Shown here in pieces: positions 3,305-22,312 of a stretch of DNA of 31,102 bases. The notes beneath the pieces are model-generated. The model did not search any database, was not told the origin of the DNA, and was given only the letters and a program-made list of their open reading frames with translations. Position 1 is the first letter of the stretch. Each line of letters opens with the position of its first letter. A program made the position numbers and the translations under genes. This DNA is from a virus: positions 1 to 31,102 of IMG/VR virus record IMGVR_UViG_3300029268_000089; one strand, given 5' to 3'.

Positions 3305-6300
3305 ATGGATCGGAAAGAAAATCCGTTTGACCAGTTTGACCAAGAGCCAGCCAATCAATTTGACCAGTTTGAAGTAACACAAAGCGCCAACCCGTTTGAT
3401 CAGTTTGATCAAATGGATAAAGTTGCCGCACCAGTTGCGCGTGGTCCAATCAAGGGGCCAGCGCAGCGTACAGTGGTGCCCCCAGCGGCAGCCCCTGTGG
3501 CGCCAGTAACAGCAGAAGATTACTTGGAGCCAGCGACTTCTGCGCCGCCACCTTTAAGTGAGGCTGTGCGATCGCAATTAGATCGCAAGTATGACGCCCT
3601 GTCTCCACAGGACCGGGATGCAATCATTCGTGGTCGCACCAAAGATGGCCGCCAGACCTTGGAAGGAATGTACTTTGCCTACAGGGACAAGCAGTTTGCT
3701 GCGCGTGATGCTGATACGGCAGCATTTGCCAAGCAGCTCGGTCCAATGGCATATCGCCTTTCTGACCTGACAGACCCCCGGAAAGAGTCGCGTGCTCGTA
3801 TGGCGCGTGAGCAGGGCGCATCGGACAAGACAGCAGAGAATATTGCAGCGCAAGCAGCTATCGAGGGTCTGCCAGCAGAAGAGGTGGTGCCGCAGGCCAA
3901 AGAATCAAAGTTTGATTTTGACTTGGCTGCTCGCTACAAAGATCTTAATCCCGTGGTGCGCGGGGCTGTAAAGGGTTACTACGGCTACAAGCAAAGTGTG
4001 CTTGGCCTTAACCAAGCGCTTGGTGACTTGGTTGGTGCAACAGACTTTGCGGATACGCAAAGGGCTGGCGCAGAAACTGCCGGCGGTCGTGTTGAATCTA
4101 TTGGTGAGCGTCCTGATTACCTGTCGCGTAACTTTGAAGGCGCGGTGAGCAGTGTTGTTCAAAATATTCCCGGCATTCTTGGCGGAATTGCAACGGGCGG
4201 TGCGCTAGTCCCATTGTCTGTGCTGGGCGTACAGTCTTTTGGCCAGAACTACACAGAGGGCGTGAGTCGTGGGTTGACCCGCGACTTGGCGGCGCAACGC
4301 GCAGGCGTGTTTGCAGCAGCAGAAATCTTGGGCGAGCGCTTTGGCTTGGCCGGTCTAACAAACGGCATCCGCAAAGCCTTTGGCAAGAAAAGCTTTGAGG
4401 AGGCTTCCGATGCGGTCTCGCGGTACATCGTTAGCCAGATTCCCGGTGAGCAACTGACTACTGCTACGCAGTTCCTTGCAGACAAGTACCCGAGTTTTGC
4501 CTTGAATCCACAGGCAGGTATCAAAGAGTATCTGCAGCAAGCTGGCGATACGTTGACTCAAACCATCATGCAGGGCGGTCTGATGATGGGTGGCGTTAAG
4601 GGCGCTCAGTTCTTGGCTACCGGGCGGTTTGGCGCAGAGCCCGGAGAACAGCCACCGATTGCCGGCCGTCCTCCAGAAGAGCCGCCGATGGCACCAACCG
4701 AAGAGCCCCCTATTGCTCCGTCTGGCGCTCCGGGTGGTGAACGCATAGAACCAACGGTTACCGCAGAGCCCACCATCACTCCGGAGCGTGTAGAGCCTGC
4801 GTTTGGTGCAGAACCCACTATAGAGCCTGCTGTAGAACCGGAAGAGCCCGGCGTTCCCGGCATGGTCACCACGGAGATGCTGGCACCCGAAGCGGTGGAG
4901 CAGCCAGAAGGCCAGGTTGCCCCAGCAGAACCGCCGGTTCCGTCGCCTATCAAGCCAGCTGTTGCGCCTCCACAAGAACCATCCAATGAAACCACTGTAG
5001 ACGGAATGTTGCCGGTCAATGTGCCGCTCAAGGATCTGACGCTCTCCAAGGATGTGCCGCAGTTCAAGATGGGCGCAGATGCCAAGGGCGTTGTAGAGCC
5101 GCTAGGCGGAAAGTTTGAGCGCACTGGCGTCGCCCCCATTCAAGTCTGGCGCCGGCTTGATGGCAGCCTAGAGGTTATCTCCGGGCGTCACCGTTTGGAT
5201 TTGGCTCGCCGTAGTGGCGAGAAAACCATCCCTGCACAGATTCACGACGAGTCGCAGGGCTTTACTCCCACGATGGCGGCCATTCTAGATGCGGAGCTGA
5301 ACATCCGCGATGGCCAAGGAAAGGTGAAGGACTATGTCAATTACTTCAAAGCGGCCGGCATCACCCCGGAAGATGCAGAGTCAAGAGGACTTCTGGCAAG
5401 GTCAACGGGCAAGCGGGCTTACACAATCGCAACTACGGGCAGCGATGAACTCGTTGCCGCAGTTCGTAACGACCAAATCGGTGATGAAGCGGCGTACTAC
5501 GTCGCGCTAAACGCGCCGAATGACCCGCGTCTGCAAAGCGTGGGTCTGCAAGCCATTCAGGATGGCAAGTCGGCCAATCTAGCAGTCAACACCATGCTGG
5601 CCATGAAGGCGCTTGGCATGGAGCAAGACACCACGACCGACATGTTTGGCTTTGACGACAGCGCCATGAAAGAAGCGGCTGCTATGGCACAGGTCGCTAA
5701 CAAGAAGCAGCGTGAGATCCAGACCCGGCTTGCTGCTATTACTGGCGCAGCCAAGAACCCGGCTGTTGCCAAAGCAGAAGGCATCGACATCCGCGACCCA
5801 GAGGCGGTCAATCGCCGTATTGGTGAGCTGCGTCAGATGAAGAATGCTTGGGACAACTGGGCTACCAGTCCTGAATTGATTGGCGAAATTCGCCAAGCAC
5901 GTGGCGTTGAAGCACCTGGTCTGACTCTGCGTGGCGAGACGGAAGAAGAAATCCGTGCCCGCGAGGAAGCGGCGGCAGCAGAGGAGCAGCGTCTCCGTAG
6001 CGAGGCGGAGGCAGCCAGACGTGCAGAGCAGGCGGAGATAGAGCGCAAGCGTGCAGAAGAAACGACCGACCTATTCCAGCTTGGCCAGACTGCAGAGCAG
6101 CAGATGTCTGGCATGGGTGATTTGTTTGCGGAACCGGCAGCCCCAGCAAAAGCGCCGAGGGAAGCGCCAGAATTTCCGTTTGAAGAAGGCGCTCGTGTTC
6201 GTTTTTTGCCAACCGACACATCGCCTTTGGGTGGCGGTGTTGCAGAAGGCCAAATCATTGGTTTGGACAAAACCAGTGGAAAAAACTACCGAGTTCGTTT

Positions 6301-9300
6301 GCGCTTAGATAAAGATGCCCCGCAGGGTAGCGGCAAGATGGAGCGCGTTGTTTACAGCAATGCCGGTACTTTTGAGGCGGCAGAAGCGCCCGCAGCAGCC
6401 CCAGCAGCAAAACCTGTTATTGAAAGAACTACCCAGCCCGATGGCGGTGTTCGCACAGTTGTAACCAGAGATGGAAAAGTCATTAAAGATGTGACTCGCT
6501 GGAAATACGAAGCGATTGTTGCTGACGAACCGCAAGGGTTTGTTGTCGAACAAGATAACATCACTGGTGAAAAAGAAGCATTTTGGGCCGTAGATGGCAG
6601 GGTTATTGGCTCCGGCATTGGTGCCACAAAGCTTTTTGAACAAGGCATGTCTAACGAAGACGCCATCCGTCGATTGATGCAGGATGTAGAAAGTCTGACG
6701 CTTAAAGGCAAGGCAGAAGCGCCCGCAGCAGCACCAGAAGCAGCCGACATGGAGCAACTCAACCGCCTGATGGGCGAGTTGCAAAAGGCGCGCAGTGAAC
6801 AAGAGTTCACCGACGCTGCTGTTGCGCTGGGTGAGTCGGTGCCCAAGCAACCGTTCTTGGGAGTGCAGCTGAAGGAGCTGTCGAGCGGTGTGCGGTTCAA
6901 TATCGCTCGCTCTTCGGATGGCAACCGTATTGTCTTTAATGCTGGCTACGATGACCCCGATGGTTTTGAGATAGCCCGCAAGCCCAATCAAGCGTGGAAG
7001 CTTACAAAGACACCGCGCTTTGCCAAGCAGATCATTGAGCGCAACCAAGCAGCGCCGGTGGTTGAGAAGCCAGAAGCTAAGCCCGCTCTGCAGAAGCCGG
7101 CTGCCGAGAAAGCAGAACCACGCGCAGATTTTGACAAGCGCGCGAAGAACGCGATTGATAGCTTTGTAGACAGCATTGTTGAGCAGTTTGACATGACGCC
7201 GGAAACGGCCCTGGCTGCATTCAACTGGCTGCGCAGCGAGAAGCTGGCTGAAGTGGATCCGGTTCTGGGCAAGGTCAATCTTAAGGATGGTCGCTTCTGG
7301 GATGGCGAAATCCTACGTCGAGCGGCGCTGGAGACGGAGGCCAGGGGCCGTGAGCCAGGGGCAACGGACGAGGACGTTAAGGCAGTCGGCGAAGTTTTTG
7401 AAGGCGCACGCGCCGGTCAAGAAGAAGAGCTTCATCGTCTGTTCGACAAGCCTAAAGAGGTGGTGCGCCTCACCCAGAAGGGTGACTTCATCACTCCTGC
7501 AGAAGCAAAGAAGCGTATTGCTGAGTGGAAAAAGAATGCAGAAGACCAAGGCAAGACCAACGCTAATTCAGACAAGATCGTTCTGTCATTGTTTGATTTG
7601 ACTGGCGCATGGAGTGAGCCGTGGCTTGAGGCTGGGTATCAGGTCTATCGCTTTGACATCCAAGATCAATGGACAATGACCGATGAGCGCACAGGCGAAG
7701 AACTAAACCTTGGCGACATCAACAACTTCAGCGTCGAATACTTTGAAGATCTGTTTGGTAACTTTGAGGGCAACGATGTCCACGCCATCCTAGCTGCCTG
7801 CCCTTGTACCGACTTTGCATCTAGTGGTGCGCGTCACTTCAAGGCTAAAGATGCAAGTGGTCAAACGATGGACTCGGTGCAGTTGGTGCAGCAAACGCTG
7901 GCCACCATTGAGTACTTCCGTCCTGCTATTTGGGCTATTGAGAACCCTGTTGGTCGTATTGAAAAGCTGACTGGCTTGCCACCGTGGAGCCTGTCGTTTG
8001 ACCCGTACATGTTTGGTGACCCGTACACCAAGAAGACATTGTTGTGGGGTCGGTTCAACGCCAATCTGCCGACCGCTCCTGTTGACCCTGTAGAGGGCAG
8101 CAAGATGCACCGCATGTATGGCGGCAAGTCTCTGGCCACCAAGAACGCCCGGAGCGTCACGCCGGAAGGTTTTGCCTATGCGTTCTTCCAAGCCAACAAC
8201 GCTATTGACCATCCTGTCATGGCCCTGGCCAACATCTACGACCGACTAAACCCCAAGCTGTTTGAGCGTGCAATGAAGCTTGGCGTGTCTGAGCAAGACA
8301 TCCGTTACGCTATAGATGACGCGTACTACAGCGAGTTGGACGATGCGGCAGCAGAAGCTGAGCTCGTTCGACTGGCCAATGAAGCGCAAGCGGCTAAGGC
8401 TCCTAAGCCGAAGGCGGAGAAGCCTGCTGAAAAACCAATTGCCGCCAAACCAGCGGAAAAACTTCCGTACACCAAAGAGCAGCGCGAAGATGCCGAGATC
8501 CATGCCAAAGAAGTGGGCGGGGAGATTGTATGGCAGCGTGGTGAATACGCACTGATTCGCGGCTACTCCGATCGTACCGGAGACCCGATGTATGCGCCCA
8601 CCATTGGTAGCTCACGAGCCCGTGTTGATATCTCTGCTTTTATTGGCAAGCAGATCCCGGATGATGTGAAGAAGGAAATGCTGGAGACCAAGGAGCGCCT
8701 TGAAAAAGAAGCTGCCGAGGCTCATGCAGCCAATCCGTTCATCAAGTTCAAGGATGGCATTGCTCTGTCGGAAGACATCCCGGCAGATTTGGCGGGGGTT
8801 ATCCGTGAGTGGAAAAACCTTCTCAATATAAATGTTCCGGTCTATGTATCTACCATTGAAGATGCCAAGCGGAATATTGATAACTTTACTGGGCCGCACC
8901 GTCGCATTGGATCTGGAACGCTTGATGAGAATGAAGCGGGGTCGATGCGCCGGATGACAGATGATAGCTATTACATTCTGTTTAAGAAATCTACCAGCTA
9001 CACAAAAATGTTGGAGACGTTGGCCCACGAAATTGGCCACCTTCACATGACTGTTCACTATAAACGAGCAAGTCAAGAAGACAAAAAAGCCCTAGAAGCC
9101 GCGCACATTAAATGGATGGAGTCGCAGAAAGACAAAAGCGCAAAAGAATGGGTAGATGCTATGCGCGCTCGATCTACGGGCCGCATGGTTAAAGAAGTCC
9201 CTGGCATGAAAGCCAGTGAAATGGACTTTTATTGGCGCAAGTTTGGCGAGTGGTACGCCGATCAGACTGCACGGTGGGCGATGTCCGCAGAAGCTCCGGT

Positions 9301-12300
9301 ATCGGTGGTGGAGAAGTTCTTCAAACGGCTGGGCAATCAGCTGCGCCGTTTCTACCAAAGCCTGCGTGGCCAGAAGTATCTGCCGGATGAGACGTTCCGT
9401 GAGTTTATTGAACGTGCCATCAGCCCAACCTACATGGGACCGACTGACACGACTCTGCCACCCTCAGATGAGGCAGAACGGCAACTGCGCGATGCAGAAC
9501 GCGAGAGTGCAACGTGGTCGCCTAAGCGTATCAAGATGCTGGTGCGTGAGTTTGTATATCGCCAAGAAGGTAGAGAGAACGACACCAAGGCATACGCTGC
9601 CTTTATCAATCCGACTGAGTTTGTGCGTGCAACCACCGAGCCTGGTGAGTTCCGCAAAGAATTGCTCCGCGCAGAAGAAGGCTTGGACATGGATCGTCTG
9701 CGTGAGGAAGACCAGACGCCGTTCTTGAAGGTGGATTACGTGCCCGGCGACCGGGTGATGTGGTCTATCGTCAATCATGAGGGCCGTCACCGCATGGCTG
9801 CTTTGGCAGCTGCTGGCGTGGAGCGCGTGCCCGTATTGATTCGCATGACTGGCGAAGCGCAAGCATGGCCCGCTATTGAGTCGCAGTGGTTGAGCGGCCA
9901 AAGATTTGGCACTGGGATTAGGGAGAAAGGTGATGCAGTCGAGATCACCGACTTGACGCCAATCTCGTGGGCCAACCGCGATGATCTGCAACAGAAGTTT
10001 GGTGGCGAGGGTATAGCGTTCAGTATCGAACAGCCAGAAGCAAAGCCCACGAAGCGGATGAGCGATGAAGACATTCGCGACGAACAGATTCGTGAGTACT
10101 CTGCACTGCGTCAACGCTTAGCTGCTGTTCCCCGGAGAATCGCGACTGGCAAAAGCGCGCTCCCTGATGGCCCAGCTAAAGGCATGACCGAGCTTGAGCG
10201 CGTCTACCTGAAGTCTCTTGTGGATAGGGCGCAGTATCTTAAGGCTGCCATCAAGATCAGTGCTCCGCGTCTTGATAGCCCTGAGCAGTTCCTGGCTCGC
10301 GCTCTCAAGGAGTACGACGCCGGCAACATCAGCAAGGAAGTGTTAGATGTCATTCAGGCTGCGTATAAACAACAGCCCAGACTTCTCAATGGACTAAAGC
10401 TCAGCATCAAGCAAGCCCCTGAAGGGGAGGGGCGCTTTGCCGGTGCGTTCCTAAACATGTCGCGCATCGTTCGCCTCTACAAGGGGTCGAGCGGTGTGGA
10501 CGATCCAAAGACCATCCGCCATGAGCTGACGCACTCTTTGGAGCAGATGATGACGCCCGAGCAGCGCGGCGTGATTATCGACAAGTGGCAAGACGATCTG
10601 GCCAGGGCAATCCGCAAGCACAAGGATGCCGCCCATCAGAAGTACTTTGAGGCGCTGCTGAAGTTCTTGGATAAGCCCACGATGGAAAACTACAAAGCTG
10701 CCATCGCGGCGCTGCCATCGTATGACATGTACCAGTTCATCACTCCCTCTGAGTACTGGGCAGTCAACGCAGAGAACCTTATGGCCAGCCAGCTTGGCGG
10801 TCCTTGGCAACGCTTCAAGGCAGCCATGAAGCGGATGTTTGAGGCGCTGAAGGATGTCTTTGGATTCGATAACAAGTACGTTGTCCAGCGTGTCTTCAAA
10901 GACATCATGACTGGCAGCAAGGAACGCGTGACCACCGAGATGCTGGCTGACCGGGCGGGCATTGCTGTCTATCCTGCGCAGAACATCGAAGAAGACAAAA
11001 CGCTGATTGAAAAGTACAAGCGTCCCAAGACGCCGATGCTGGACAAGAAGCCGCTGGCTACCTTTTTGCTTGACCAGTTTAAGAACGGCAAGGATCTGTT
11101 TAAAGACTTTGTAGAGAACCCCAAAGAGGCTGCTGCTGACGCTGGCAACTCATTAATTGATGGGGCGCTCAGGGCGCGCATGGCAACTGTCTGGTACGGG
11201 GCCGGTTTGGAGTCACGCGACTTTGCCAAGTATGGTGGTCAGCTGCGCACTAGCGAAGACTTGGCCACAGCATCTGTTGCTTTGGATAACGCCATCCGCA
11301 GCGGCAATATTGGCGTGGAAGTCATCTTCCGTGGTGGCCTAAAGTTTGATAAGGACAAGCTGCAACTCGTAGCCGTAGAGACCAAGAAAGGTATGCGCGG
11401 TGTCTACGATGCAGAGCGCCGCCTGAAGGACAAGCTGGGCAATCAGCTTGGCACTGACATTATCCAAGGCTATCTGGAAGCCAAACGTTCTATAAGCATC
11501 ATGAACGAGTTTTACGATCGCCAGGCTGCATACGAGGGCGCCAAGGAAAACCTCAAGATGCTGCGCGAGCAGGGCGCTTCGGAGAAAAAGATTAAGGAAG
11601 CAGTGGCGCTCATGGAGAGCGCAGAGCGCAGCCTTGAATCGGTTAAGAAAGCCGTCTCATCGGTGACCATGACCGAAGAGGAAATGTACGATTTTGCCGC
11701 TAGGGACAAGGTTCATCCAGAGCTCCGCGAAATTATGGACAACTGGACGGCTGTAAATCAGAACCTGTTGCGTATCTGGCGAGATGTTGGCCTGTTGTCT
11801 CCGGAGCGTTACGAGGCGCTTGCCTCTATCCCGGACTACGTACCGTGGTATCGCATCATGCAGGACGAAGAGGATCCGCATACGCCTCTTATGTCTACCA
11901 CCCGTGGGCTCACCAACATTGGCCGGGAGAAGCTGTTTAAGCGGACCAAGCCGACCGATGTGCTGGACTTCAAGGGCAAGGAAGGCAAGAAGGTTCTGGA
12001 CGAGAGCGGCAACTTGATTGGCATGTCTTTCAAAGTGCCGCCGTCCACTGTGCTACGCGTTGAGGTAGATGGCGAAAAGATCAAAGCCCAGGACTTGTCT
12101 GTGACCGATGACGGCCGGGTAATGGTCAAGGCACCGATTGATGACGCCTCTCTGGTGGTCTTCAAGGTGACCCGCCCGATTCAAAACATTGTTGATAACA
12201 TGACTCAGAACGTCATGCGCATGACGATGAACGCCATCCGTCAGTATGCGGCTGGACGGATTGTTTCTGAGTACGCAACCCGTGACCCCCAGGGAAGAGT

Positions 12301-14008
12301 TATGACGTTCCCGAAGGAAGATCTTGCCAAAGGTCGATTCTCCTTTGTGATCAACGGTCAACGCAAGGTCGTAGAAATTTCAGACCCGCTACCGCTGGGC
12401 GCTATTTATGGCATGGATAGCTTGAACTTGAAGATGTTTGCACTGCCTGCTGCATTCGCCAACTTCTTCCGTCGCACCATTACTCTGTCGTTTGTGTTCC
12501 AGCTGAAGCAGGTATTCAAGGATGCGCCCACGGCGGCTGCCGTTACCGGCGTTCGCAATCCAGCAGCTCTTATCCTGGGGACTTACAAAGGACTCATTAC
12601 CGCGTTGCTGCAACCTGTCGGCAAGAAGGTGGGCATAGACATCGAGCCAGCGGTGGATATCTTGAAGGCTGCCGGCATCGGCGGCTTCCAGAATCCGTCA
12701 CGTACTCCAGAGGCAGAAGTAAAGCGTCGGCTGGGCATCATGAACCGCAACGTCTTCGACTTTGTGATCAAGGCGCTAGACCACATTGGTGACTCGGCTG
12801 ACATGGCGCAACGGATTGCAGTTTACAAGCGCGTCATGGCAGAGACTGGCAATGAAACGCAGGCGCTCTATCAGGCTGCCAATGTCATTAACTTCCTACA
12901 CCACGGCTCCTCCGGCACAGCTCAGGCTTTGGTTAAGACCGTTCCCTTTATGGGCGCATATGCCAACGCAATGGATGTATTGGTTAACTCATTGATTGGC
13001 GGCGGCCTTAAGGGCATGAGTCGCAGGAAGGCCATTGCCCGTTTGAGTGTGACCACGGGGATGCTGATTGGCATCACGCTGCTTTACACCATGTTGGTCA
13101 GTGGTGATGACGACTACGAAGAGCTGGACGATCAGACTAAGCTGCGCAACTTCATCATCCCTGGCACCGACATCATGCTGCCGATGAACACGTCGTATGC
13201 GTTCTTCTGGAAGGCAATCACGGAGATGCTTTACAACGAGGCAATCAAGAAGGCTACGCCGAATGAGATTGACCAAACACGCCTGAAGAAAGCGTTGAGT
13301 ACTGCCGCCAGAGACATGCTGCTTGGTCCGGAGCCGGTGCCGCAGATAATCAAAGGTCCGGCTGAGATTGCCATCGGCTACAACTTCTTCACCGGACGGG
13401 ACATCATTCCTGAAGGTCTGAAGAACGTTGAAACGTTCCAGCAGTACACCGCTGCCACTTCAGAACTTGGCAAGTGGTTTAGCAGCTACACCGAAGTCCC
13501 CGGTACTGATGGCAAGCGCATCCTAAGCCCCATCGAGGCAGATCATCTAATCCGTTCCACGTTTGGTACGGCCGGGGCTCTTGGTCAATGGGTCACCAAT
13601 CGCATTGCCGTAGAGGCTGGCACAAGACCGGAGCTCACGGAAAAGGAAGCGCCTATCACTGGCGCGTTCCTGCGACCGGAAGTAGATCGTGGCAGAGAAG
13701 ATCTGTTCTACGACCTACGCAATCGCGTGAACCAAAAGTACAACACGCTGCGTGAGCTGGAGCGTGATGATGAGAAGAAAGCCGAGGCTTACGACGAAAA
13801 GTATGAAGACCTTCTTGATATGCACAAAGACGTAAACAAGATAGCCGCAGACCTATCCGACATCAACGCAGAAATTCGCGAGCTCAGCACATCTAAAGAT
13901 ATCAAGATGACCCCCGCCGAACGTCGCGCCGAAATCCGCGCTCTTCAGCAGGAAAAGAAAGAAGTCCTTGATGACATATACGAGCTTCGCAAGGAGGCGG
14001 GGCTCTAG
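3305..14008 (+). CDS. Giant polyvalent virion/ejection protein (ParB-like, C5-MTase-like, two zincins, LPD38-like end)
   Basis: 3567 residues in one uninterrupted frame. In order: NPFDQFDQ-type repeats (5-36); a Gly/Ala-rich hydrophobic stretch (about 276-360); a Pro/Glu linker (about 450-570); a ParB-like motif GRHRLDLAR (627-635); an Ala/Glu/Arg coiled coil (about 885-940); a cytosine-methyltransferase-like domain (about 1420-1640) with SLFDLTGAWSEPWLEAGY, CPC around P1500-C1501 and ENP (1546-1548); a zincin HEIGH (1908-1912) with likely third ligand E1982; a second ParB-like GRHRMAAL (2160-2167); a second zincin HELTH (2406-2410) with E2483; and a C-terminal region resembling the large polyvalent protein-associated domain LPD38, with a membrane-type segment near 3243-3268 and a charged coiled-coil tail. 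Such proteins are thought to enter the host with the DNA and protect or process it. The domain motifs are seen; catalysis and ejection are inferred. Pro/Ala-rich linkers separate the modules. Confidence 0.85.
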   Translation: MDRKENPFDQFDQEPANQFDQFEVTQSANPFDQFDQMDKVAAPVARGPIKGPAQRTVVPPAAAPVAPVTAEDYLEPATSAPPPLSEAVRSQLDRKYDALSPQDRDAIIRGRTKDGRQTLEGMYFAYRDKQFAARDADTAAFAKQLGPMAYRLSDLTDPRKESRARMAREQGASDKTAENIAAQAAIEGLPAEEVVPQAKESKFDFDLAARYKDLNPVVRGAVKGYYGYKQSVLGLNQALGDLVGATDFADTQRAGAETAGGRVESIGERPDYLSRNFEGAVSSVVQNIPGILGGIATGGALVPLSVLGVQSFGQNYTEGVSRGLTRDLAAQRAGVFAAAEILGERFGLAGLTNGIRKAFGKKSFEEASDAVSRYIVSQIPGEQLTTATQFLADKYPSFALNPQAGIKEYLQQAGDTLTQTIMQGGLMMGGVKGAQFLATGRFGAEPGEQPPIAGRPPEEPPMAPTEEPPIAPSGAPGGERIEPTVTAEPTITPERVEPAFGAEPTIEPAVEPEEPGVPGMVTTEMLAPEAVEQPEGQVAPAEPPVPSPIKPAVAPPQEPSNETTVDGMLPVNVPLKDLTLSKDVPQFKMGADAKGVVEPLGGKFERTGVAPIQVWRRLDGSLEVISGRHRLDLARRSGEKTIPAQIHDESQGFTPTMAAILDAELNIRDGQGKVKDYVNYFKAAGITPEDAESRGLLARSTGKRAYTIATTGSDELVAAVRNDQIGDEAAYYVALNAPNDPRLQSVGLQAIQDGKSANLAVNTMLAMKALGMEQDTTTDMFGFDDSAMKEAAAMAQVANKKQREIQTRLAAITGAAKNPAVAKAEGIDIRDPEAVNRRIGELRQMKNAWDNWATSPELIGEIRQARGVEAPGLTLRGETEEEIRAREEAAAAEEQRLRSEAEAARRAEQAEIERKRAEETTDLFQLGQTAEQQMSGMGDLFAEPAAPAKAPREAPEFPFEEGARVRFLPTDTSPLGGGVAEGQIIGLDKTSGKNYRVRLRLDKDAPQGSGKMERVVYSNAGTFEAAEAPAAAPAAKPVIERTTQPDGGVRTVVTRDGKVIKDVTRWKYEAIVADEPQGFVVEQDNITGEKEAFWAVDGRVIGSGIGATKLFEQGMSNEDAIRRLMQDVESLTLKGKAEAPAAAPEAADMEQLNRLMGELQKARSEQEFTDAAVALGESVPKQPFLGVQLKELSSGVRFNIARSSDGNRIVFNAGYDDPDGFEIARKPNQAWKLTKTPRFAKQIIERNQAAPVVEKPEAKPALQKPAAEKAEPRADFDKRAKNAIDSFVDSIVEQFDMTPETALAAFNWLRSEKLAEVDPVLGKVNLKDGRFWDGEILRRAALETEARGREPGATDEDVKAVGEVFEGARAGQEEELHRLFDKPKEVVRLTQKGDFITPAEAKKRIAEWKKNAEDQGKTNANSDKIVLSLFDLTGAWSEPWLEAGYQVYRFDIQDQWTMTDERTGEELNLGDINNFSVEYFEDLFGNFEGNDVHAILAACPCTDFASSGARHFKAKDASGQTMDSVQLVQQTLATIEYFRPAIWAIENPVGRIEKLTGLPPWSLSFDPYMFGDPYTKKTLLWGRFNANLPTAPVDPVEGSKMHRMYGGKSLATKNARSVTPEGFAYAFFQANNAIDHPVMALANIYDRLNPKLFERAMKLGVSEQDIRYAIDDAYYSELDDAAAEAELVRLANEAQAAKAPKPKAEKPAEKPIAAKPAEKLPYTKEQREDAEIHAKEVGGEIVWQRGEYALIRGYSDRTGDPMYAPTIGSSRARVDISAFIGKQIPDDVKKEMLETKERLEKEAAEAHAANPFIKFKDGIALSEDIPADLAGVIREWKNLLNINVPVYVSTIEDAKRNIDNFTGPHRRIGSGTLDENEAGSMRRMTDDSYYILFKKSTSYTKMLETLAHEIGHLHMTVHYKRASQEDKKALEAAHIKWMESQKDKSAKEWVDAMRARSTGRMVKEVPGMKASEMDFYWRKFGEWYADQTARWAMSAEAPVSVVEKFFKRLGNQLRRFYQSLRGQKYLPDETFREFIERAISPTYMGPTDTTLPPSDEAERQLRDAERESATWSPKRIKMLVREFVYRQEGRENDTKAYAAFINPTEFVRATTEPGEFRKELLRAEEGLDMDRLREEDQTPFLKVDYVPGDRVMWSIVNHEGRHRMAALAAAGVERVPVLIRMTGEAQAWPAIESQWLSGQRFGTGIREKGDAVEITDLTPISWANRDDLQQKFGGEGIAFSIEQPEAKPTKRMSDEDIRDEQIREYSALRQRLAAVPRRIATGKSALPDGPAKGMTELERVYLKSLVDRAQYLKAAIKISAPRLDSPEQFLARALKEYDAGNISKEVLDVIQAAYKQQPRLLNGLKLSIKQAPEGEGRFAGAFLNMSRIVRLYKGSSGVDDPKTIRHELTHSLEQMMTPEQRGVIIDKWQDDLARAIRKHKDAAHQKYFEALLKFLDKPTMENYKAAIAALPSYDMYQFITPSEYWAVNAENLMASQLGGPWQRFKAAMKRMFEALKDVFGFDNKYVVQRVFKDIMTGSKERVTTEMLADRAGIAVYPAQNIEEDKTLIEKYKRPKTPMLDKKPLATFLLDQFKNGKDLFKDFVENPKEAAADAGNSLIDGALRARMATVWYGAGLESRDFAKYGGQLRTSEDLATASVALDNAIRSGNIGVEVIFRGGLKFDKDKLQLVAVETKKGMRGVYDAERRLKDKLGNQLGTDIIQGYLEAKRSISIMNEFYDRQAAYEGAKENLKMLREQGASEKKIKEAVALMESAERSLESVKKAVSSVTMTEEEMYDFAARDKVHPELREIMDNWTAVNQNLLRIWRDVGLLSPERYEALASIPDYVPWYRIMQDEEDPHTPLMSTTRGLTNIGREKLFKRTKPTDVLDFKGKEGKKVLDESGNLIGMSFKVPPSTVLRVEVDGEKIKAQDLSVTDDGRVMVKAPIDDASLVVFKVTRPIQNIVDNMTQNVMRMTMNAIRQYAAGRIVSEYATRDPQGRVMTFPKEDLAKGRFSFVINGQRKVVEISDPLPLGAIYGMDSLNLKMFALPAAFANFFRRTITLSFVFQLKQVFKDAPTAAAVTGVRNPAALILGTYKGLITALLQPVGKKVGIDIEPAVDILKAAGIGGFQNPSRTPEAEVKRRLGIMNRNVFDFVIKALDHIGDSADMAQRIAVYKRVMAETGNETQALYQAANVINFLHHGSSGTAQALVKTVPFMGAYANAMDVLVNSLIGGGLKGMSRRKAIARLSVTTGMLIGITLLYTMLVSGDDDYEELDDQTKLRNFIIPGTDIMLPMNTSYAFFWKAITEMLYNEAIKKATPNEIDQTRLKKALSTAARDMLLGPEPVPQIIKGPAEIAIGYNFFTGRDIIPEGLKNVETFQQYTAATSELGKWFSSYTEVPGTDGKRILSPIEADHLIRSTFGTAGALGQWVTNRIAVEAGTRPELTEKEAPITGAFLRPEVDRGREDLFYDLRNRVNQKYNTLRELERDDEKKAEAYDEKYEDLLDMHKDVNKIAADLSDINAEIRELSTSKDIKMTPAERRAEIRALQQEKKEVLDDIYELRKEAGL

Positions 14009-21457: not shown

Positions 21458-21703
21458 TTAAGACAAAGGTTTTTCTTCTAGGCCGTCATCGTCATCAATG
21501 TCTTCGTCTTCATCGATGTCCTCGTCTTCGCCAAGATCATCATCAAAGTCATCATCATCATCATCGCCGATATCGGTTGCGTGCCACGATTCGCTGACTT
21601 CATCAGCGTCAGAATCAAAAGCTTCCTTGATAGCATCGCTGGCAGTTTCAGCTTCGATGAAATATTCAAATCGAACAATGTTCGTAATGTTCCAAATCTT
21701 CAT
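21458..21703 (-). CDS. Small protein with poly-acidic C-terminal tail
   Basis: 81 residues from the ATG at 21703, which has GGGGGTGG upstream (a GTG two codons earlier is possible). The N-terminal 40 residues look like a small alpha/beta unit (IVRFEYFIEAETASDAIKEAF). The C-terminal third is almost only Asp and Glu (about residues 47-75). Strings of that kind occur in DNA-mimic and histone-like acidic proteins, but also as simple solubility tails. The coding DNA is a decayed GAT/GAC/GAA repeat. A role as DNA mimic is speculative. Confidence 0.65.
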   Translation of the reverse strand: MKIWNITNIVRFEYFIEAETASDAIKEAFDSDADEVSESWHATDIGDDDDDDFDDDLGEDEDIDEDEDIDDDDGLEEKPLS

Positions 21704-21779
21704 AACCACCCCCCGTAAGCGCGACCGTGCGCACGCATGAAACTATCTACACATTATTGCCACCATGTGAATTAAGGTG

Positions 21780-21807
21780 TTGACAAGCGGTTGAATTGTA
21801 GTATGTT
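21780..21807 (+). promoter_or_regulatory. Strong promoter for the large structured RNA and ParB-like operon
   Basis: Perfect -35 TTGACA (21780-21785), 16-base spacer, -10 TATGTT (21802-21807). It is oriented away from the leftward acidic-protein gene. Predicted start near 21814. Nothing else upstream of the ParB-like gene matches both boxes as well. Confidence 0.65.
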
Positions 21808-21812
21808 TAGCG

Positions 21813-22200
21813 TGTCTGGTGTGGCAACCAGGTATGTCCGTAGACCCCGGTGCAGTGATAGGGGGCTTGTGTGGTCACAAAGCATCTGCGGACATGCCAA
21901 GTGATTGCCCAAGCCAAGGGCCAAGCCCTCTATCAGTGCATTGGGGTTTTTCTTTTGGCAGCCAGACCGTCAGGGCGCGTTAGCAGATGGGCCTGTATGG
22001 GCTGCACCCGATAAACACACGGTCTAACTTACACCCGATTAGTACCGTACCAGCCTGTCAGCGAGGGACTGGTGTAGATAACGCAACGTGGTAGGAACCC
22101 AGGCGTTATTGAATGAATCGCTGCCTCATGGGGGACTGGGGCCGGTCAGCCGGTCTGGGTCGTGTGAATCCCGCAACCGCCGGATCCACCCTGGGGAGAC
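21813..22200 (+). ncRNA. Large structured non-coding RNA with interlocking helices
   Basis: No credible ORF in about 500 bases, yet base pairing is dense. CTGGT/ACCAG hairpin (21816-21831). Helix A GGTATGTCCG (21831-21840) with CGGACATGCC (21889-21898). Helix B, 19 positions (21851-21869 with 21922-21940), with 17 Watson-Crick pairs, one G-U and one mismatch. The order A-B-A'-B' makes A and B a pseudoknot. Further helices: AGACCGT/ACGGTCT (21964-21970 with 22019-22025), ACCAG/CTGGT (22049-22053 with 22069-22073) interlocking with CAGCGA/TCGCTG (22059-22064 with 22118-22123), and ATAACGC/GCGTTAT (22078-22084 with 22103-22109). The 3' boundary is uncertain; the RNA may continue as the leader of the ParB-like gene. 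It may belong to one of the large ornate phage RNA classes (for example GOLLD or ROOL), but I cannot identify it. Confidence 0.65.
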
Positions 22201-22312
22201 TATTTTTCCGTGATGCGGCATCAGATGAAAGTGGCAACGGTCATGTGCTATGATAAAGCTGCACCTAGAACGTTATGCTGGTGTACGATGGAAGGCCCAC
22301 AAAGGAGGTCAA

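Follow-up and report, generated by a model that had tools for sequence, protein, structure and literature searches.

A family of structured phage RNAs with a pseudoknotted, terminator-like 5′ domain and a conserved core

Results

Organization and predicted fold of the locus

The window analyzed here is the complete 31,102-nt stretch of the IMG/VR virus record IMGVR_UViG_3300029268_000089. It contains an RNA of ~390 nt on the plus strand (approximately 21815 to 22203), organized in three domains, which is followed by a gene for a ParB-like protein and then by helicase and primase genes. A small ORF on the minus strand (21458 to 21709) lies beside the RNA, and its product, as judged from the DNA, is apparently rich in acidic residues. 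One third of the window is taken up by a 3567-aa open frame (3305 to 14008, plus strand). tRNA genes were absent from the window, and only one was found in the 48 loci scanned.

A sequence scan placed a sigma70-type promoter (TTGACA-16-TATGTT) at 21780 to 21807 on the plus strand, from which we infer a start near 21815. The transcript would open with a 5′ hairpin (21816 to 21831) carrying a GUGGCA loop; GTGGCA is present in 17/17 class II homologues (see below), a class that was selected for this motif. Helix A follows (21831 to 21840 with 21889 to 21898; nine Watson-Crick pairs and one G-U pair). Helix B had been annotated as 21851 to 21869 pairing with 21922 to 21940, with 17 Watson-Crick pairs and one G-U pair in 19 positions around a 52-base loop. 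This pairing is present as claimed, as is that of helix A, and B extends to 28 columns (21842 to 21869 with 21922 to 21949). The 3′ arm of A crosses B, giving an A-B-A′-B′ pseudoknot, and a U-run resembling that of an intrinsic terminator comes directly after B (21947 to 21957).

Domain 2, the conserved core, spans 21964 to 22137. In it, the P1 hairpin (21991 to 21993/22000 to 22002), taken from the core alignment, is closed by P0 (21973 to 21975/22007 to 22009), recognized by eye; together they occupy 21973 to 22009. The same alignment defines P2 (22019 to 22022/22045 to 22048 plus an inner stem), the P3 hairpin (22049 to 22073) and the P5 hairpin (22078 to 22085/22102 to 22109), in which the last pair is mismatched in the window. 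The P5 loop is of the type GGUGG..ACAAG, and that of the window is divergent. The P3 loop CAGCGA (22059 to 22064), on the stem 22049 to 22056/22065 to 22073, pairs with TCGCTG (22118 to 22123) and thereby forms a second pseudoknot. Domain 3 (22164 to 22203), delimited by inspection, consists of a terminal hairpin and a conserved 3′ tail of the CACCCUUGGGGAACCUAUG type, which reads CACCCUGGGGAGACUAUU in the window.

Helix B was proposed to be very unlikely by chance, and shuffling of the window alone agrees with this: its score is 59, and the best of 300 shuffles reached 37. Helix A is only moderately unusual when the window is considered alone, since 13/500 shuffles reach its score; it is established through its homologues, by sequence comparison. 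An automatic search of the region for the best interlocking pair (row L001, the window sequence) retained B and chose another register for A, with a total of 82 versus at most 57 in eight shuffles. The folding energy of the region has a z-score of −3.1 (0/100 shuffles as good), and that of 21815 to 22203 a z-score of −2.7 (1/100 shuffles as good). The longest ORF within the RNA has 54 aa, and no ORF spans it. Among 44 homologues, no frame of the core is stop-free in all rows, and the most open plus-strand frame contains a stop in 28 of them. A coding function was rejected on this basis, in line with the initial annotation, which saw no credible ORF.

Homologues are found mainly in uncultured viruses

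A BLAST search of 50,697 phage records returned one convincing match, to the uncultured podovirus MW202484.1, and one chance-level match (E 7). When four other members were used as queries, two retrieved only MW202484.1 and two retrieved nothing. In this genome, the RNA is overlain by a CDS for a "hypothetical protein" (33533 to 33892, corresponding to 2910 to 3269 of L002), probably a misannotation of a noncoding RNA.

An exact 16-base pattern from a shared stretch matched at least 120 stretches of viral contigs; since these could include chance matches, they were checked with a covariance model. A 36-base core pattern with 26 fixed bases matched 101 stretches of viral contigs and none of 84,980 bacterial and archaeal species genomes, a search that prophage copies with a changed motif would escape. 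From this distribution, the core looks virus-borne. Because loci were found by core motifs, the invariance of those core bases is partly a matter of selection.

The core model R1 (P1 to P5 with the covarying pseudoknot) detected 160 loci in viral sequences at ≥50 bits, a count that includes training rows, near-identical copies and three copies of the window virus. In the first source set, 26/52 sequences matched (25 at ≥50 bits); the corresponding numbers were 100/100 (76) for the motif-chosen set and 62/63 (59) for the third set. The window RNA has the core that defines membership and scores 147.6 bits (E 1e-43), a value that is high by construction, the window being a training row. The R1 search of 40 records found exactly one copy in 36 and none in four; most of these records are of unlisted completeness, and MW202484.1 is listed as a complete circular genome. 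A 43,914-base IMG/VR contig carries an RNA and a ParB-like gene identical to those of the window and probably represents the same virus. The 36 one-copy records correspond to 35 viruses, since G001 and the window record probably stem from a single one.

The initial annotation suggested looking for homologues upstream of ParB-like genes. This link did not prove general: the core is carried by 21/47 ParB-like loci, the window virus among them, and motif-found loci mostly lie beside other genes. When 14 of the 26 core-less ParB-like loci were searched without filters, the best score was 10 bits; several of the other 12 include only a short upstream region. A ParB-specific leader was rejected on these counts.

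Variants of the core were also seen. Six loci (L117, L119, L125, L134, L139, and L153) have a second core type, in which CGTCAGGGCGCGTTAGC and ACCC are kept, GGCAGAAATCTCC is found in the P1 hairpin, and the downstream sequence also differs. In L086 (2102 to 2340), an insertion makes the core ~65 bases longer than in other members.

The core structure is supported by covariation

The core alignment (A1) contains 44 nonredundant members. They derive from 73 nonredundant motif loci, of which 49 had the class 1 core pattern and 48 of these were long enough; the divergent loci L082, L121, and L137 and the insertion-bearing L086 were left out. In A1, the structure composed of P1, P2, P3, P5 and the pseudoknot is paired in 94.1% of 1,314 cells, and both sides have changed at 27/30 pairs. 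The covariation score is 0.718, versus 0.209 for shuffles and at most 0.091 for slid versions of the structure. The structure was derived from A1 itself and is thereby favored over the slid versions, but the difference far exceeds this effect.

Between the P3 loop and the strand behind P5, all 264/264 cells pair, in each of the 44 sequences, and changes on both sides occur at 6/6 pairs. The second pseudoknot, which the initial annotation had considered possible at 22049 to 22123, is thus real. By eye, P0 is swapped as a whole helix between distant subfamilies, with the variants GGG/CCC, GCGA/UCGC, GAGG/CCUC, GACG/CGUC, UCCG/CGGA, and UCCA/UGGA.

Domain 1 combines a pseudoknot with a terminator-like U-run

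Domain 1 was analyzed by class. The class I alignment (A3) holds 49/52 members; L132, which belongs to class II, and the near-duplicates L194 and L211 were left out. The class II alignment (A2) holds 17/21 members, including the window, with near-duplicates omitted. Further classes occur, as seen by inspection.

In class I, the A arm is the loop of the 5′ hairpin and pairs with A′ within the loop of B. Pairing is observed in 96.9% of 1,221 cells and in 97% of those of the A pseudoknot, bearing out the interlocked arrangement first proposed for the window. The covariation score is 0.447, compared with 0.177 for shuffles and a maximum of 0.113 among slid versions. Both sides have changed at 5/7 pairs of helix A and at 10/13 pairs of helix B. 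The selection pattern for class I fixes the first arm of the 5′ hairpin and the first two bases of A, which makes those pairs uninformative; the double changes fall in pairs outside it. Compensatory changes, the absence of which was named in the initial annotation as grounds for refutation, are abundant in A, B, and the core. Chance pairing is refuted by the comparison of A1 and A3 with their shuffled and slid controls.

The A arms of class II can hardly be aligned by sequence, but in each phage the two arms are complementary. With the phage's own partner, the longest run of perfect pairing averaged 10.3, versus 5.2 with the partners of other phages; 6.6% of the swaps reached 8, and the top swap reached 11. 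The window gave the lowest own value (6), its arm having been cut by the column slice. In class I, 48/49 own arms gave at least 7 perfect pairs; among swaps between different arms, 4.8% did so. When A was searched for automatically over all loci, the result was only moderately above the controls (21/39 loci scored ≥20, versus 17% of shuffles and 20% of swaps), because the loop geometry differs between classes. For A, the decisive tests were those made class by class.

A feature that the initial annotation had missed is that helix B also resembles an intrinsic terminator. Of the 12 bases counted from the foot of B, at least 6 are T in 49/49 class I and 17/17 class II members, and the stem sequences of B differ among these 66. 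In a more diverse set, 31/39 loci had such a U-run; the other 8/39, e.g., L102, L114, L121, and L137, had fewer than 6 T at this position. The automatic search for B failed in 18/57 nonredundant loci; the failure was true in, for example, L117, L130, and L141 and due to the criterion only in L072, L086, and L175. Judging from the arrangement of stem and U-run, the foot of B has the appearance of an intrinsic terminator whose loop is unusually long. The U-run follows the stem directly, as in intrinsic terminators, but the loop is not short: it measures 52 bases in the window and ~20 to 90 nt across members, which is long for a terminator, and B was not reported by a standard terminator scan, which allows loops of 3 to 8 bases.

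In L162 (~555 to 725), a tRNA-like T-arm and an acceptor-like stem, as judged by eye, apparently lie upstream of the core and replace the usual A/B domain. ARAGORN detected no tRNA in this locus.

Promoter and 3′ end

A promoter scoring at least 9/12 stands beside the 5′ hairpin in 64% of 66 loci, including the window, versus 4.0% of shuffles. In 53/54 loci scoring at least 8, the −10 box ends 0 to 4 bases before the aligned start. Because the sigma70-type promoter lies at a near-constant distance, the RNA very probably begins at its 5′ hairpin. The initial annotation had likewise noted a consensus promoter at the right distance. In L157, L070, L073, L093, L112, and L124, the −35 box of the RNA promoter lies inside an upstream terminator-like hairpin, e.g., CCCCTGCTTGACAGGGGCTTTTTTT, so that terminator and promoter overlap compactly upstream of domain 1.

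At the other end, a tail of the same type as in the window follows the terminal hairpin in 46/53 nonredundant loci. Its AUG is the likely start of the next gene in several phages (replication initiator, HNH), and the window has CUAUU in place of CUAUG. In capsid contexts, the tail AUG opens a short frame only, and TTGACA and a −10-like box ~19 bases apart come next, as seen by eye; this site went unscored in our promoter scan, which used spacers of 16 to 18. Promoters scoring at least 9/12 after the tail were weakly overrepresented (9/46 loci versus 6.8% of shuffles). In the window, a separate promoter-like site (22225 to 22254, plus strand; 9/12, with TG before the −10 box) lies between the RNA and the ParB-like gene; promoter-like sites are not in excess in the whole stretch (7 versus 5.1 in shuffles). 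On inspection of 46 sequences, we noticed no terminator beyond the 3′ tail, and the number of terminator-like sites downstream of the window RNA does not exceed that in shuffles. Antitermination as judged by a count of downstream terminators was rejected, there being no excess in the window.

The RNA occurs in different gene contexts

PHROGs and Pfam searches identified neighbors of different function. In L157, a T7-type capsid assembly protein is encoded upstream and the major head protein downstream; L181 has a replication initiation protein and L192 a YbcO/HNH nuclease as neighbor. In L056 and L082, the recognizable downstream genes, for a sigma-70 region 4 protein and a primase, are on the opposite strand. 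The first of these is a phage gene at 9858 to 10391 of L056, and the ORFs closer to the RNA in this locus had no family match. The nearest downstream ORF of ~80 aa or more was co-oriented with the RNA in 31/39 loci and the nearest upstream ORF in 25/39; of the eight loci that deviate downstream, at least three (L157, L180, and L192) do so as an artifact of choosing the longest ORF. Of eight records analyzed for cumulative GC skew, the minimum was within 1 kb of the RNA in G003 and within ~3 kb in MW202484.1, and the other six showed no turn near the RNA. A replication origin as judged by GC skew was rejected on these data, which speak against it in 6/8 records and not in two.

The RNA does not match known families

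At gathering scores, Rfam 15 gave no match for the window or for 12 homologue loci, and permissive all-family scans of three members produced only matches far below the cut-off. Known Rfam families were rejected accordingly. The four models that the initial annotation had proposed as a check were run on six records without a match. For GOLLD (RF02032), there were 0/6 hits at E ≤10, with control signal in 5/14 genomes, none above the cut-off. ROOL (RF03087) likewise gave 0/6 at E ≤10, a result that is weak alone as its control gave no signal. HEARO (RF02033) gave 0/6 at E ≤10 (control signal in 2/14, none above the cut-off) and OLE (RF01071) 0/6 (no control signal). The all-family cmscan agrees in all four cases. 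The annotation had left the choice between GOLLD or ROOL and a new class; the latter half of this proposal stands, and neither GOLLD nor ROOL is matched. Judged by sequence and covariance models, the RNA is a new family with no Rfam match. It is the family that is new; large structured RNAs of unknown function, as a broader kind, are already known from phages. No description of the family was found in the open-licence literature searched, including passages of PMC9004378 and PMC12286853.

According to PMC12286853, GOLLD and ROOL are large ornate RNAs of phages and prophages with unknown function, and GOLLD, too, is conserved in its 3′ portion and less so in its 5′ portion; the likeness lies in these traits. 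In the same paper, GOLLD is often >800 nt long, and ROOL env-120 measures 659 nt. The new RNA differs in its length of ~390 nt, in its own promoter, in the U-run after the 5′ pseudoknot, and in lacking a tRNA island.

Lambda pR′/6S RNA with tR′ and the antitermination RNAs HK022 put and Bacillus EAR lie ahead of phage or operon genes. Like the new RNA, they place behind a promoter either a short structured RNA with a terminator or a structured RNA. Unlike them, the new RNA has a conserved core of ~170 nt after the terminator-like element, its neighbors vary, and the window shows no excess of downstream terminators. The phi29 packaging RNA is likewise a single phage RNA gene in which loop-loop complementarity is kept though varying between phages. 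The new RNA differs from it in having no Rfam match at all, three domains, and a loop pairing that is explicable within one molecule.

Discussion

Comparative evidence places the window RNA in a family of structured phage RNAs, ~390 nt long and built of three domains. Domain 1 is an A-B-A′-B′ pseudoknot with a U-run, domain 2 is the core with a second pseudoknot, and domain 3 is the terminal hairpin with the 3′ tail. Our preferred reading, to which we give slightly less than an even chance, is an independent RNA gene whose pseudoknotted terminator would decide between a ~140-nt and a full-length product. We read it as an RNA gene because it is conserved and covarying, occurs once per record, has its own promoter, and has interchangeable neighbors. 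The U-run after B makes domain 1 a likely attenuator, and this predicts two products of ~140 and ~390 nt.

According to this model, the RNA itself would be the gene product, made by the host RNA polymerase. Domain 1 would be a promoter-proximal intrinsic terminator within a pseudoknot, acting as a switch, and A/A′ would be able to influence whether B forms or is used. Action of the terminator would release a ~140-nt RNA. If a phage factor or the kinetics of folding override it, transcription would yield the full-length RNA, core included, and often continue into the next operon. The core, being rich in conserved unpaired bases, would be the part that binds a partner or catalyzes a reaction.

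This reading is supported by the covariation in the core and domain 1, the test of own versus swapped A arms, the promoter at near-constant distance, and the lack of an ORF across the RNA. It also fits the U-run, kept behind B in 66/66 aligned members despite differing stem sequences, and the single match in each of 36/40 records with varied neighbors. On the other side, termination at B is predicted from stem and U-run only and the B loop is long; 8/39 diverse loci are poor in T at the foot of B, and 18/57 fail the B search. The lack of a terminator excess behind the window RNA lends no help to a role in antitermination. In several members, moreover, the 3′ tail runs straight into a start codon, which fits a cis-acting leader equally well.

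The main rival, somewhat unlikely in our estimation, is a structural RNA that stands alone and acts in trans, with a logic like that of ROOL, GOLLD, or the phi29 packaging RNA; it would fold into a particle or multimer or bind host machinery; the U-run would be incidental or structural and the neighboring genes irrelevant. The single copy in 36/40 records suits it, as do the varied neighbors (convergent in two loci), the promoter-like sequences after the RNA in some contexts, and a conserved core behind a variable 5′ part. Moreover, the A pairing of class I joins a hairpin loop to a second loop, a geometry that could also act between molecules. A U-run in all 66 aligned members is less easily accommodated, as are the co-oriented nearest downstream ORF in 31/39 loci and the failure to notice a terminator behind the 3′ tail in 46 sequences. 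In another reading, that of a purely cis-acting mRNA leader, the conserved tail GGGGAACCUAUG would present the start codon, and the RNA would govern translation or stability of the next gene. A tail AUG that likely starts the replication initiator or HNH gene in several phages makes such a role possible for some phages. As an account of the family, it is improbable, because the next gene is functionally unrelated between phages, capsid contexts offer only a short frame before TTGACA and a −10-like box (by eye), the recognizable next genes of L056 and L082 are convergent, and the window has CUAUU, not CUAUG.

Three further explanations carry little weight. The compact pseudoknotted core with its many conserved unpaired bases could belong to a large ribozyme of the self-cleaving or splicing type, capable of its own maturation or of moving from one intergenic site to another, but no Rfam ribozyme or intron model matches and we rate this as very unlikely. 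Lower still stands a replication-origin or packaging element, for instance a primer RNA or R-loop. It would agree with the single copy per record, the frequent proximity to replication genes, and the GC-skew minimum near the RNA in G003 (within 1 kb) and MW202484.1 (within ~3 kb); the 6/8 records with no skew turn nearby and the RNA between capsid assembly and major head genes argue against it. Chance pairing or protein-coding sequence has next to no chance of being correct: the CDS annotated over the RNA in MW202484.1 would favor coding, and the covariation controls and the stops in the homologues contradict these two notions.

Returning to the terminator switch, its fullest form can be put forward more tentatively than the RNA gene itself. 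The RNA may be a new phage RNA machine, present once per genome in unrelated gene orders, with a built-in terminator switch yielding a ~140-nt or a ~390-nt RNA and a pseudoknotted core that would bind a host or phage component or another copy of the RNA.

Whatever the function, a large and strongly covarying RNA family seems to have been overlooked, being absent from Rfam 15 and nearly absent from described phages. Its study can now begin from a defined object, with a promoter, a pseudoknotted terminator-like element, a core, and a 3′ tail, whose transcription, structure, and deletion phenotype are testable. The finding suggests that uncultured phages hold further RNA classes.
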